Assembly (NCBI GenBank): GCA_028280565.1
Contig: JANQLQ010000042.1
Coordinates: 1-45,433 of the forward strand
Reading direction: 5' to 3'
DNA from: Fulvivirga sp.
GTDB lineage: Bacteria; Bacteroidota; Bacteroidia; Cytophagales; Cyclobacteriaceae
Length of the DNA stretch: 45,433 bases
Each line of letters opens with the position of its first letter. Position 1 is the first letter of the stretch. The notes beneath the pieces were generated by a model. It saw only the letters and a program-made list of their open reading frames with translations. It ran no database searches and was not told where the DNA came from. Positions 25,753 through 30,472 of the stretch are shown piece by piece. The translations under genes and the position numbers were made by a program.

Positions 25753-27033
25753 TTATCTTACAAATTGTGCCTCTTCGGTACTACCACTCATAGCCGTGGT
25801 GGAAGATGTGCCTTGCTGCACAATGTTCTGTACCGTATCAAAATATTGGGTACCTACAAACGCTTGGTGTTTTACAGCTTTAAAGCCATCTTCTTGCAGC
25901 GCAAACTCTCTTTCCTGTAATTCACTGTAACCGGCCATTCCCCTATGCTTGTAGGCTTTAGACAGTTCAAACATAGAAGTATTCAGGGCGTGGAAACCCG
26001 CTAAGGTTATGAATTGGAATTTATAACCGAACTCGGCCAGCTTTTCCCTGAAGGTCTCCATCTCTTTTACAGAAAGTTTCGCCGCCCAGTTAAAGGAAGG
26101 AGAGCAGTTGTATGCTAACATTTGCTCGGGGTATTTTTCCCGGATAGCATCCGCAAACTCTTTGGCCAGTCCTAAGTCAGGATTGGAAGTTTCCATCCAT
26201 AATAAGTCGGCATAAGGTGCATAGCTTAACCCGCGATCTATGCCTTGCTCCAGTCCGTTTCTTACATGGAAAAACCCTTCTGAAGTTCTCTCTCCTGTCA
26301 AAAATTTATGATCCCTTGGGTCAATGTCAGACGTGATCAAATTAGCGGCCTCGGCATCCGTACGAGCTACGAGGAGCGTGGGCACATCCATGACATCCGC
26401 AGCCAGCCGGGCGGCGATCAATTTGTTGATCGCTTCCTGTGTAGGCACCAAAACTTTACCTCCCAAATGACCACATTTTTTGGCAGAAGATAGCTGATCC
26501 TCAAAATGGACCCCGGCAGCACCTGATTCTATCATCGCTTTCATGAGCTCAAAGGCATTCAAATTCCCCCCAAACCCAGCTTCTGCATCAGCTACGATAG
26601 GCACCATCCAGTCGATATCGGTGTCACCCGTAACACTTTGTATTTGATCCCTGCGCATCAAAGCGTTATTGATCTTTTTCACTACACTGGGTACGGAATC
26701 AGCAGGATACAGGGATTGGTCAGGATACATCTGCCCGGCCAGGTTAGCATCCGCCGCTACCTGCCATCCACTGAGGTAGATAGCTTCTAACCCGGCGGTT
26801 ACCTCTTGTACGGCCTGGTTGCCGGTAAGCGCGCCTAAGCCTGCCACAAAATCCTGCGAGTTCAGTCGCTTCCATAGTTTTTCCGCCCCAAGTTTCGCAA
26901 GGGTATGCTCTATAATTACAGACCCTCTTAGTTTTACTACAGCCTCAGGAATGTAGGTCCTTTTCACATTTTTCCAACGCGGATTGGTCATCCAGTCGTT
27001 GTACATTCTTTCAATTTGATCTCCCCTGGTCAT
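25753..27033 (-). CDS. aceA: Isocitrate lyase
   Basis: A 426-residue enzyme that splits isocitrate to glyoxylate and succinate, the first step of the glyoxylate shunt. It lets the cell grow on acetate or fatty acids without losing carbon as CO2. The active-site signature KKCGHLGGK is at residues 185-193, with the catalytic cysteine at 187. [33 protein letters not shown] and YNCSPSFNW are other conserved parts. The length is typical of the short, bacterial form. It is the second gene of the operon and starts five bases after the malate synthase stop. The 3' end faces a strong palindromic terminator. Confidence 0.97.
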
Positions 27034-27038
27034 AACGT

Positions 27039-28652
27039 TTAATTGATTAGGTTGTAAGTTCTTATTGTTAAAAATTCTTCGAAAGTATCGGCAAGCACCA
27101 GCTCATCGAATAGTTCAATGGCCTTTTTGAATTCACCATTTTTGTAGTACTCTTTTCCTACGTATTGCTTGATCTTTTCTATTTCTTCATTCCTTAGCTC
27201 GTAATAAAGCTCTTTGTCCACTTGGCGTCCGTCCTCCAGCTTAGCGCCGTTTTTGATCCATTGCCATACTTGGGTCCTGGAGATCTCTGCCGTGGCGGCA
27301 TCTTCCATCAGGTGATAAAGAGCTGCTGCGCCATTTCCCTTAAGCCAGCTTTCCAGGTACAAAATACCTACATTAATGTTTGTTCTCAGCCCTTGCTCGG
27401 TAATGGTCCCTTCCGGCACCTCCAGCAGTTGCTCCGGGGTAACATGCACATCACATCTTTTAATGTGGACCTGGTTATTCGTAGGCATGTACTGGTTAAA
27501 TGCCTCTTCCGCCACCTTTACCAATCCCGGGTGGGCCACCCAAGTGCCATCATGCCCCATTCGTACCTCACGCACCTTGTCTGACATTACTTTTTCCAGT
27601 GCGATCTCGTTGGCTTCAGGGTCCGATTTGATCGGGATCTGCGCTGCCATACCTCCCATAGCATGCGCTCCCCGCTTATGACACGCCTTGATAACAGCAA
27701 GGGCATAGGATCGCATAAAAGGCACCTCCATGGTCACTTGCGCCCTATCCGGTAGGATGAACCCTTCGCGGTTACGAAACTTCTTTATAAACGAAAAGAT
27801 ATAATCCCATCGGCCGCAGTTAAGCCCGGCGCTGTGCTCTTTCAGTTCAAAGAGGATCTCGTCCAGCTCAAACGTAGCCAATATCGTCTCGATCAATACC
27901 GTGGCCTTAATGGAGCCTTGCGGTATACCCAGGTAGGCTTGGGCAAATTCGAATACTTTATTCCAAAGGCGAGCCTCTTTATGACTTTCTATTTTAGGAA
28001 GGTAGAAATAAGGCCCGCTTCCTTTATCTAAAAGTTTTTGTGCATTGTGAAAGAAATACAATCCAAAATCCACAAGACTTCCGCTCATAGGCTCGCTGTC
28101 TACCCTTAAATGCTTTTCTTCCAGGTGCCATCCGCGAGGTCTTACAAATAATACAGCCGTGGTAGGGTTGAGTTTGTACTCCTTCCCAGTTTTCGGGTGC
28201 TTATACGATATGGTGCCTTCAATGGCATCGCGTAGATTGATCTGTCCCTGGATAGTATTGTCCCAATTCGGGGTATTGCTGTCTTCAAAATCTGCCATGA
28301 ACACCCTTGCGCCGGAGTTCAGCGCATTGATGATCATCTTGCGCTCCACCGGCCCGGTGATCTCCACACGTCTATCCAAAAGATCATGCGGCACCGGGGC
28401 CACTCTCCAATCACTTTCGCGGATGGCCTTGGTTTTTTCCAAAAACCCTGGCATCTGCCCACCGTCCAGCTCGTTTTGCCGGATCTCCCGGGCTTTTAAC
28501 AGGCGCTTCCTCTCCCCGTTAAAATTCCTGTGCAACGTTTCTAAAAAAGCGAGTGCCCCGGGTGTGAGTATTTCCTTGTAAGCCCCTGGCATCGCACCCT
28601 GTATCCCGACAGTTGCGGATGTTTCGTTGATCTTGCTAGTTATCTCCATCAT
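27039..28652 (-). CDS. aceB: Malate synthase A
   Basis: A 537-residue enzyme that condenses glyoxylate with acetyl-CoA to malate, the second shunt step. Signature parts are [82 protein letters not shown] and [14 protein letters not shown], which place it in the A class. The reading frame is open 18 codons upstream. I start at the ATG at 28652 because the family N-terminus begins here, and the upstream part would run into the promoter and palindromes. It is the first gene of the aceB-aceA operon. The start region lies about 25 bases after the proposed transcription start. Confidence 0.96.
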
Positions 28653-28683
28653 TTTTGACAAGCGTTTAAAAGGTAATGTTCTG

Positions 28684-28715
28684 CCAAGATAGAAAATTTT
28701 CTTCAATAGCGAAAA
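28684..28715 (-). promoter_or_regulatory. Proposed aceBA promoter
   Basis: On the minus strand TATCTTGG (28691-28684) resembles the -7 element TAnnTTTG with one mismatch. TTTT (28715-28712) sits 20 bases upstream in the -33 position. The same TATCTTGG with a better -33 precedes the SpoIIE gene. The proposed promoter lies inside the palindrome cluster at 28691-28737. Confidence 0.4.
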
Positions 28716-28737
28716 TTCGCTAAAAGAAAATTTTCTT
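28691..28737. promoter_or_regulatory. Cluster of three palindromes upstream of aceB (putative operators)
   Basis: Three palindromes lie in a row: AGAAAATTTTCT (28691-28702), TAGCGAA-AA-TTCGCTA (28707-28722) and AAGAAAATTTTCTT (28724-28737). Their centres are 18 and 16 bases apart. The outer two are near-identical and the middle one is different. The first two overlap the proposed aceB promoter, so binding there would block transcription. The divergent RamB/ScfR-like regulator is the natural candidate to bind, which is inference. Confidence 0.7.
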
Positions 28738-28743
28738 AAAAAA

Positions 28744-28775
28744 TTGAAATAGCACCATTTTATATGCTATTTTTG
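28744..28775 (+). promoter_or_regulatory. Promoter of the RamB/ScfR-like regulator with an internal inverted repeat
   Basis: TATTTTTG (28768-28775) matches the -7 element TAnnTTTG, and TTG at 28744-28746 lies about 21 bases upstream in the -33 position. The inverted repeat AAATAGCA (28747-28754) and TGCTATTT (28765-28772) fills the space between and overlaps the -7 box, so a bound protein would block polymerase. Autoregulation is the likely purpose. Confidence 0.55.
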
Positions 28776-28906
28776 TTGTTATTATTCCCCGGACAGGTAG
28801 TGGTTAAACTACATTTAAGTGATTACTGGCCAGGCAATAGCCCGAGCCACGATAACCACATTTCATGAAATGCCGGGAGTAACCAAAAAAATTTCATAAA
28901 TTTCAC
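28776..28906 (+). other. Possible structured leader of the regulator gene
   Basis: Between the promoter and the start codon lie several pairing segments: GTAGT and ACTAC around a six-base loop (about 28796-28811), TGGTTA (28801-28806) with TAACCA (28853-28858), and the perfect palindrome CATTTCATGAAATG (28859-28872). The first two stems share bases, so they would be alternatives. No known riboswitch is recognised. Confidence 0.3.
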
Positions 28907-30472
28907 ATGGAATATGCACATTTAACCCCGTTGGAAATCGATAGCCCAAAATCACCGAGAATGGAAAGTAAGCGGACGGATATGGTAAACGGTAATTTTT
29001 CCCTCAAACACATTTTAGGGCTCAAAGTGCGTGACCTTAGGGTGGATAAGGATCTTTCTTTCCAGGACTTGGCCGAAAAAACCGGGTTGTCGATCTCTTA
29101 TTTGAGCGAGATCGAAAAAGGCAAAAAGTATCCCAAAGGGGACAAGATACTTTCCTTGGCCGAGGCCCTGGGCGTGAGCTACGATTACTTGGTCTCTTTG
29201 AAAGTGTCCAAAAAGCTGGAGCCGATCATTAACTTGTTGCAATCGGACTTTTTCAAGGAATTCCCGCTGGAAACCTTCGGTTTGGATCCACAAAAGATCA
29301 TCGAGTTACTGTCGCAAGCGCCTGAAAAGATCAACGCCTTCATTACGTCCATCATTAACATGGCCCGCAACTACGAGATGCGCGGGGAGCATTTCTACTT
29401 TGCCGCGTTACGATCGTACCAGGAGCTTCATGACAACTATTTCCCTGGGTTAGAGAACGCCGTGAATGAGTTCAGGAAAGAGCATGGCGCCTTGCTAGAG
29501 GTACCGGTGACCGTAAATGCGCTCAAAGATATATTACGTAACAAATATAATATCCAGTTAGACCGCGGGCAGCTTAGCAAGCAGGAAGCACTACGCGACT
29601 TACGATCCTATTTCCACGAAAAAGAACAAAAGCTCCTGTTCAACGCCGGGTTAACCCGTGCCCAGGAATGTTTTCTCCTAGGCAGGGAGATCGCCTTCCA
29701 GCACCTGGGCATCAAGAACAGGCCCATGGAAACCCCTCCCCAGCGGGCCTATCAATTCGAAACGATATTGAACAATTACAAGGCTTCATACTTTTCGGCC
29801 GCCTTAATGATGCCCGAAGATGAAGTCATTAAAGATATTCGTAAGGTCGCCCTGGCCAAAAAGTGGAATAAGAACATGATGGTCTCGTTCATCGATAAAT
29901 ACCGGGCCACCCCGGAAATGCTGATGCAGCGCCTGACCAATATCTTACCGAAGCGCTTTGGCATGAAAAACCTTTTTTTCCTGCGTTTTGTAGGCACGGA
30001 TAATTTTTCCTTTTACGATCTTACGAAGGAATTGCACCTGGCCCGTATTCATAACCCGCATGGGAATGGCCTGAATGAGCACTACTGCCGCCGGTGGCTC
30101 GCCATTCGGATGATCAAGCAATTGCGAAGCACCTCGAAGATCAATCGCACCAACCAAATACTGGCTGGCGCCCAGATCTCAAAATACTTTGGCACGGACG
30201 ATGATTATCTATGTTTGTCCATGGCATTCCCTAATGTCTCTAATCCCATAGAAAGTATCAGTGTTACCATTGGCTTTTATATTGACGACGCTCTACGGCA
30301 GCGCATCAGGTTCATCGATGACCCTTCTATCAAATCACGAATTGTGAACACTACCTGCGAACGCTGCGCCTGGACAGACTGCGAAGACCGCATCGCCCCG
30401 CCGATCCAGGTGGAACGGGAAAAAAGCCGGCAAGAGATCTTACAAGCTATGGAGGTCATTGACCCAAGTTAG
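28907..30472 (+). CDS. RamB/ScfR-type regulator (XRE HTH plus IrrE-like domain) beside the glyoxylate operon
   Basis: A 521-residue protein. The N-terminal helix-turn-helix (about 36-92) reads LGLKVRDLRVDKDLSFQDLA, EKTGLSISYLSEIEKGKKYP, LAEALGVSYDYL. A long central region (about 150-400) resembles the ImmA/IrrE-like part of short-chain fatty acid regulators. It lacks a clear HExxH: the equivalent region reads LLGREIAFQHLG. The C-terminus has CERCAWTDCEDRIAPP (C484, C487, C492), the cysteine cluster of the DUF2083/ScfR group. RamB of Corynebacterium and related proteins control aceA, aceB and propionate genes. It is divergent from aceB across 254 bp with palindromes, so direct control of the shunt is the strong inference. 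Confidence 0.85.
   Translation: MEYAHLTPLEIDSPKSPRMESKRTDMVNGNFSLKHILGLKVRDLRVDKDLSFQDLAEKTGLSISYLSEIEKGKKYPKGDKILSLAEALGVSYDYLVSLKVSKKLEPIINLLQSDFFKEFPLETFGLDPQKIIELLSQAPEKINAFITSIINMARNYEMRGEHFYFAALRSYQELHDNYFPGLENAVNEFRKEHGALLEVPVTVNALKDILRNKYNIQLDRGQLSKQEALRDLRSYFHEKEQKLLFNAGLTRAQECFLLGREIAFQHLGIKNRPMETPPQRAYQFETILNNYKASYFSAALMMPEDEVIKDIRKVALAKKWNKNMMVSFIDKYRATPEMLMQRLTNILPKRFGMKNLFFLRFVGTDNFSFYDLTKELHLARIHNPHGNGLNEHYCRRWLAIRMIKQLRSTSKINRTNQILAGAQISKYFGTDDDYLCLSMAFPNVSNPIESISVTIGFYIDDALRQRIRFIDDPSIKSRIVNTTCERCAWTDCEDRIAPPIQVEREKSRQEILQAMEVIDPS

Follow-up and report, generated by a model that had tools for sequence, protein, structure and literature searches.

The intergenic region between aceB, a malate synthase A gene, and a divergently transcribed regulator gene of Fulvivirga sp. 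contains a candidate operator, which is the subject of this analysis. The window, by which we mean the whole stretch of 45,433 nucleotides that was analysed (assembly GCA_028280565.1, contig JANQLQ010000042.1), carries aceB on the minus strand (27039..28652; TIGR01344, 808 bits against a cut-off of 594.5) and, 5 bp behind it on the same strand, the isocitrate lyase gene aceA (25753..27033; NF011645, 743 bits against a cut-off of 562). The 5 bp gap suggests that the two form one operon, and the aceB start was placed near 28652, not at the TTG at 28706. The plus strand encodes a ScfR/PrpR-type regulator (28982..30472) with an XRE helix-turn-helix (HTH) domain, an IrrE-like region and a C-terminal four-cysteine signature. 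Its open reading frame (ORF) spans 28907-30472; since homologues align only from approximately residue 26 of this frame, the start codon is probably at 28982. Between the two genes lie three palindromes and an additional inverted repeat.

The original prediction had described three palindromes with centres 18 and 16 bases apart, and their sequence and coordinates were borne out on re-reading. P1 (AGAAAATTTTCT) occupies 28691-28702 with its centre at 28696.5, P2 (AGCGAA-AA-TTCGCT) occupies 28708-28721 with its centre at 28714.5, and P3 (again AGAAAATTTTCT) occupies 28725-28736 with its centre at 28730.5. The window on its own makes the three palindromes no more than mildly unusual. When palindromes with arms of at least 6 and a gap of at most 2 were counted, the 92-bp stretch (24% G+C) held three against 0.55 expected (P = 0.038, dinucleotide shuffles of the stretch), and the 327-bp intergenic stretch held four (P = 0.005, dinucleotide shuffles). 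The intergenic stretch also contains two perfect 8+8 repeats with a loop of at most 20, against 0.29 expected, and at least one is present in 19% of shuffles; by its coordinates one of the two is the P1/P3 pair. The P3 14-mer occurs once in the 9.05-Mb genome, and its reversed control twice. The central palindrome is significant because it is conserved in relatives, and not because of the statistics of the window.

The element that is conserved across relatives is AGCGAAnnTTCGCT, seen in the window as the core operator TAGCGAAAATTCGCTA (P2, 28707..28722). An unselected sample of 295 genomes of the class was examined for its co-occurrence with the regulator, with the regulator called at E ≤1e-30, aceB at E ≤1e-100, and mismatches counted over the 12 core letters. 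The regulator was found in 50 of these genomes, aceB in 52 and both in 42. It can be seen that AGCGAAnnTTCGCT lies within one mismatch upstream of aceB in all 42 genomes that have both (36 exact, 6 with one mismatch), whereas it was found in none of the 10 genomes with aceB but no regulator, where no match had fewer than 3 mismatches. The same was true of G019 and G055, two genomes of the relatives sample with aceB and no regulator. When the letters of the upstream regions of the 42 genomes were shuffled, none of 840 trials gave a match at 0 or 1 mismatch, and nine gave one at 2. All 12 same-genus genomes that have both genes carry a single copy of the exact 14-mer, always at the aceB promoter, and the 3 same-genus genomes that lack both have none. 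The site is still at aceB where aceB and the regulator are on different contigs (G016, G038, G049, G099 and, with one mismatch, G057), and among the 86 distinct regulators that have aceB in the same locus the core is present upstream within one mismatch in 83 and absent in 3. The operator tracks the regulator, in keeping with the proposal that the aceBA promoter is under the divergent gene's control. We conclude that putative control of aceBA by the neighbouring regulator through the central palindrome is well supported, and from the sequence comparison it is very likely that the regulator binds the core and controls aceBA.

The comparison took in 179 regions upstream of aceB, some genomes contributing more than one, and in ten of these regions no core was found even with 2 mismatches allowed. 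Two of the ten, L015 and L066, belong to one genome, G021, and precede a distant aceB homologue; in L054 (G023) the site precedes aceA instead of aceB; L058, L064, L067 and L068 (G019, G055, G039 and G032) come from genomes without a full-length regulator; L069 is the second aceB of G010; and the remaining two are L239 and L274. In G021 a second regulator copy, read as two adjacent pieces and perhaps frameshifted (G021:C1:474641-476081), sits beside a core site and the distant aceB homologue. The genome of the window (G000) also has a second malate synthase A (G000:C54:42901-44481), 62% identical and without the operator, the best match having 5 mismatches to the 16-mer; such a second gene is present in G010, and a similar copy in G013 has an internal stop codon.

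If a DNA-binding protein other than the neighbour used the site, sites without a regulator would be explained: G017 has the site with no regulator detected, and 38 of the 245 regulator-negative genomes carry an exact 14-mer somewhere, against 44 of the 50 regulator-positive genomes (hand count). This is very improbable given the tight co-occurrence of regulator and site and the positions of the copies. Of 16 extra A/T-centred sites looked at in regulator-positive genomes, 13 have an ORF of at least 100 amino acids beginning no more than 350 bp downstream and 4 are inside one (two fit both descriptions), whereas 13 of 17 A/T-centred sites of regulator-negative genomes are inside an ORF; both lists were hand-picked, are not exhaustive, and cover A/T-centred sites only.

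To characterise the flanks of the core, 169 regions that carry it were thinned at 75% identity to 69 loci. On the aceB side (P1 flank, 28690..28703) the outer half-site at 28691-28696 reads AGAAAA in the window and AGCGAA in most relatives, and on the regulator side (P3 flank, 28724..28738) the half-site at 28733-28738 reads TTCTTA in the window and TTCGCT in some relatives. AGCGAA was found within one mismatch at -17/-18 on the aceB side in 46 of the 69 loci (shuffles: mean 0.76, maximum 4), and TTCGCT within one mismatch at +17/+18 on the regulator side in 27 (shuffles: mean 1.02, maximum 4); both are present in 21 loci and at least one in 52. A third half-site, TTCGCT at +34/+35, occurs in 14 loci, and in L123, L127 and others the half-sites can run on in tandem, repeating every 17 bp.

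The flanking palindromes fared differently. P1 is a perfect palindrome in only 1 of 12 same-genus loci, the window itself, and P3 in 2 (the window and L002). Flanking palindromes would require inner arms, and these are at background: they are present within one mismatch in 0 and 2 of the 69 loci (shuffles 0.60 and 0.75). When 2 mismatches were allowed they were found in 13 and 11 loci, above the shuffles (4.3 and 4.7), so that a faint inner arm may exist in the flanking sites. The search of relatives for the palindromes upstream of aceB, as had been proposed, thus recovered P2, while P1 and P3 were not kept as palindromes; three equal palindromic sites are not supported, and as a general architecture independent full operators at the flanks were rejected on the evidence of these inner arms. 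Cooperative binding was suggested by the original prediction; three dimers on three palindromes, in the manner of lambda operators, would suit the perfect flanking palindromes and regular spacing of the window, and the XRE protein C.Esp1396I, a relative of the HTH domain, is tetrameric when bound to DNA (3clc). Since the inner arms are absent within one mismatch, though above shuffles within 2, and so few same-genus loci keep either flank perfect, we regard such an arrangement as improbable. Because relatives conserve the outer half-site, because L006 of the same genus still carries TAGCGAAATT, and because the window's own half-sites are degenerate, we take P1 and P3 to be outer half-sites that have weakened and whose palindromic form here would be a coincidence.

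The inverted repeat AAATAGCA/TGCTATTT (28747..28754 / 28765..28772) is present as described, and it had been taken as a separate site through which the regulator controls itself. Even L002, the closest relative (regulator 90% identical), has it in broken form, it did not appear in the 5 remaining aligned loci, and repeats of this kind turn up in 19% of shuffles; we judge it a chance feature, and the idea of a separate autoregulatory repeat was rejected. Self-control through a different site is not supported. The core itself was found upstream of the regulator within one mismatch in 23 of 45 loci where the regulator has no aceB beside it, at 2 mismatches in 4, and not at all in 18.

The Bacteroidota -7 consensus is TAnnTTTG. 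A candidate -7 box of aceB, TATCTTGG, lies at 28684..28691 on the minus strand, one letter off this consensus, and a candidate box of the regulator gene, TATTTTTG, at 28768..28775 on the plus strand. On the aceB side a TAnnTTTG box was found in the expected stretch in 49 of the 69 loci (shuffles 1.5). The distance from box start to operator centre is 29 nt in 27 loci and 24-29 nt for 48 of the 50 boxes found, and CAA (TTG on the aceB strand) is present at the core edge in 30 of the 69 loci. The -33 position would therefore be at the edge of the core and the aceB-side half-site within the spacer. On the regulator side the boxes of 63 loci with a mapped start, counted without correction for relatedness, cluster at 32-33 nt (17 loci) and 53-54 nt (11 loci), two classes that differ by approximately 21 bp or about two helical turns; the other boxes are scattered, several loci have no exact box, and the window falls in the longer class. 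In 9 of 12 same-genus loci (L003, L004 and L006-L012) only approximately 3-6 nt lie between the end of the regulator box and the start codon, so that the transcript of those loci may be leaderless; by contrast, in the window 206 nt separate the box from the start codon.

This geometry would also fit a plain repressor whose sole action is to block RNA polymerase until acyl-CoA releases it, with no activation and no special oligomer switch. The core covers the likely -33 region with the aceB-side half-site in the spacer, and in M. tuberculosis both icl1 and the ramB gene itself are repressed by RamB (PMC3420887). However, the closest class-2 RamB that has been studied also activates (PMC10370305), and near-fixed operator-box distances, together with the two regulator-side classes approximately 21 bp apart, would also suit contact with polymerase; we consider simple repression unlikely, though less so than three dimers.

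A terminator or attenuator hairpin in RNA or DNA would be another source of symmetry, since a fold of -24.4 kcal/mol (z -5.0) was computed for the minus strand. The element is upstream of the predicted aceB transcription start, and a symmetric operator yields such pairing in any case, with the core kept letter for letter. Among 8 relatives z ranged from -1.3 to -5.9; the long outer stem is kept in L008, arises from the outer half-sites in L019, and is short or absent elsewhere. The sole Rfam match on 28500-29100 scores 26.2 against a cut-off of 45 and was taken as chance. As the hairpin is also not generally conserved, an RNA element was rejected, and a hairpin in place of a protein site is the most improbable of the explanations weighed here.

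The N-terminal XRE helix-turn-helix of the regulator is clear (HTH_3, 49 bits against a cut-off of 23), and the remainder has a PrpR-like fold with IrrE-like, GAF-like and C-terminal regions. M. tuberculosis PrpR was the best fold match at only 14-16% identity. A C-X2-C-X4-C element (TCERCAWTDC) together with a fourth cysteine, Cys369, in the GAF-like domain was identified, and both elements are found in 122 of 132 distinct relatives; this fold and these cysteines are what mark ScfR / IsaR proteins. The profile PF09856 (ScfRs) gave 12.2 bits for the window protein against a cut-off of 24, 9 of the 17 members of A1 match it at E ≤1, and of 8 members scanned singly L027 scored 29.8 bits, above the cut-off, with no other listed at E ≤0.01. 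A search of solved structures with the single sequence and with a profile returned no PrpR among the matches listed, nearly all of which were HTH domains. The relation to PrpR is therefore drawn from fold and cysteines, and not from sequence search, and on the modelled fold and cysteine signature placement among the PrpR/RamB (ScfR) proteins is supported. The earlier description as RamB/ScfR-like stands in its second half; the name RamB is too specific, as the equivalog NF038139 gave 45 bits against a cut-off of 700 and no RamB box AA/GAACTTTGCAAA was visible by eye in 28656-28982. By analogy the protein may work like RamB without being filed as one.

The RamB of P. denitrificans, a class 2 protein of the ScfR family, offers the closest parallel (PMC10370305). 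Its gene is likewise divergent from aceB, and it controls the glyoxylate operon, as is predicted here, activating it on acetate and repressing it on succinate. Its site, too, consists of repeated boxes at the malate synthase promoter, both of which are needed. There, two nearly identical boxes are separated by an 18-bp spacer, whereas here one inverted-repeat core has outer half-sites 17-18 bp out. Without ligand the protein is a tetramer, and CoA esters shift it increasingly towards the dimer; its family binds a [4Fe4S] cluster and a CoA ester, as is predicted here from family membership. M. tuberculosis PrpR (PDB 6CYJ, 6CYY, 6CZ6, 6D2S) has the same ligand pattern, Cys363 with C-X2-C-X4-C, is divergent from its target genes as here, and regulates acyl-CoA assimilation (PMC6765138, PMC3420887). 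PrpR forms a CoA-bound tetramer. Its site differs in consisting of two 8-bp palindromes of the TTTGCAAA type one nucleotide apart, with 25 bp protected, as do its targets, prpDC and icl1 (PMC6765138, PMC3420887). RamB of C. glutamicum regulates acetate metabolism from AA/GAACTTTGCAAA sites at many central-carbon genes (PMC4448153); the genus of the window instead has one exact site per genome.

We propose, with a probability of roughly 0.65, that a single operator common to the divergent aceBA and regulator promoters is bound by the regulator. The core palindrome would take two helix-turn-helix heads and the two outer half-sites, approximately 17 bp further out, the other two heads of a tetramer; four heads are proposed because they fit an operator of four half-sites, a layout that we hold to be probable. 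With all four bound, the -33 region and the -33/-7 spacer would be covered and both aceBA and the regulator gene held down. Acyl-CoA signals, sensed in a CoA pocket beside the [4Fe4S] cluster by analogy with PrpR, might then loosen the tetramer to a dimer on the core, which would free or even stimulate RNA polymerase; a ligand-driven switch of this kind is suggested tentatively.

Core conservation, its dependence on the presence of the regulator, the outer half-sites, the promoter spacing, the fold and the cysteines are computed features. From these features we infer that the regulator binds, that a tetramer occupies the site, what its ligand is and in which direction control runs. Several points weigh against the proposal. 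Genomes with both genes span 17 families and those with aceB alone 3, with 8 of the 10 in one family, which makes lineage a partial confounder of the co-occurrence. L015, L239 and L274 have the regulator and aceB yet no site within 2 mismatches, and G017 has the site at aceB in an incomplete genome where the regulator was not found. A core within 2 mismatches was the condition for entering the set of 69 loci, which makes its invariance there partly due to selection, and 17 of the loci lack the outer half-sites on both sides (more than one mismatch). The window itself is not within one mismatch at either outer position, and because its flanks are degenerate outer binding may be weak here. The modelled cysteine loop is of low confidence (pLDDT <60), and a spatial meeting of the four cysteines is putative.

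Further copies of the core were sought as candidate targets. In the genome of the window, 8 places match with at most 2 mismatches against 35 for a reversed control, which puts weak matches no higher than chance, and 5 of the other 7 places are inside ORFs. L033 (G000:C13:39765-39780, one mismatch) is 72 bp upstream of an AraC-type regulator gene, within chance expectation, and L039 (2 mismatches) is 197 bp upstream of a MerR/TipAS-type gene. Additional sites in regulator-positive genomes stand ahead of the genes for aconitase (G141 and, twice, G058), ATP-type phosphoenolpyruvate (PEP) carboxykinase (G058, G243), isocitrate dehydrogenase (G146), and acyl-CoA and 3-hydroxyacyl-CoA dehydrogenases (G198). 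The pair upstream of the aconitase gene in G058 (C23; L206:1961-2002) consists of two complete core palindromes 28 bp apart. In the Hymenobacteraceae loci L254, L261, L263 and L284 it is a PEP carboxykinase gene, not aceB, that lies opposite the divergent regulator, and the core is again found between the two genes; the target genes of G141, L261, L263 and L284 were identified by eye from N-termini only. Since some positives are unlikely targets, such as dihydroxy-acid dehydratase (G344), part of the extra sites may be chance; several genes were not identified.

Taken jointly, and as a speculative reading, a ScfR branch across many Bacteroidota families might read an unusual operator, symmetric and built of four half-sites, and through a tetramer/dimer switch under ligand control gate several processes of carbon metabolism; in the genus of the window this would have shrunk to a single site. 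The layout would be AGCGAA, 17-18 bp, AGCGAAwwTTCGCT, 17 bp, TTCGCT, with a third half-site at +34 in some loci, and the regulator's own promoter would keep distances about two helical turns apart. The processes gated would, depending on lineage, be the isocitrate branch point (aceBA, aconitase, isocitrate dehydrogenase), gluconeogenesis (PEP carboxykinase) and beta-oxidation. In searches of the open-access literature we found no earlier description of this operator and no account of a regulator of the glyoxylate shunt in Bacteroidota, and searches for Bacteroidetes with ScfR or glyoxylate regulation, Fulvivirga, Hymenobacter and the motif letters gave nothing relevant among the papers listed. 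The site and its neighbour provide a concrete candidate pair of regulator and operator for the use of acetate and fatty acids in Bacteroidota. The operator points to more candidate targets, so that the regulon would be directly testable, and the layout of four half-sites would offer a simple test of how CoA-driven changes in subunit number translate into promoter output in the PrpR/RamB family.
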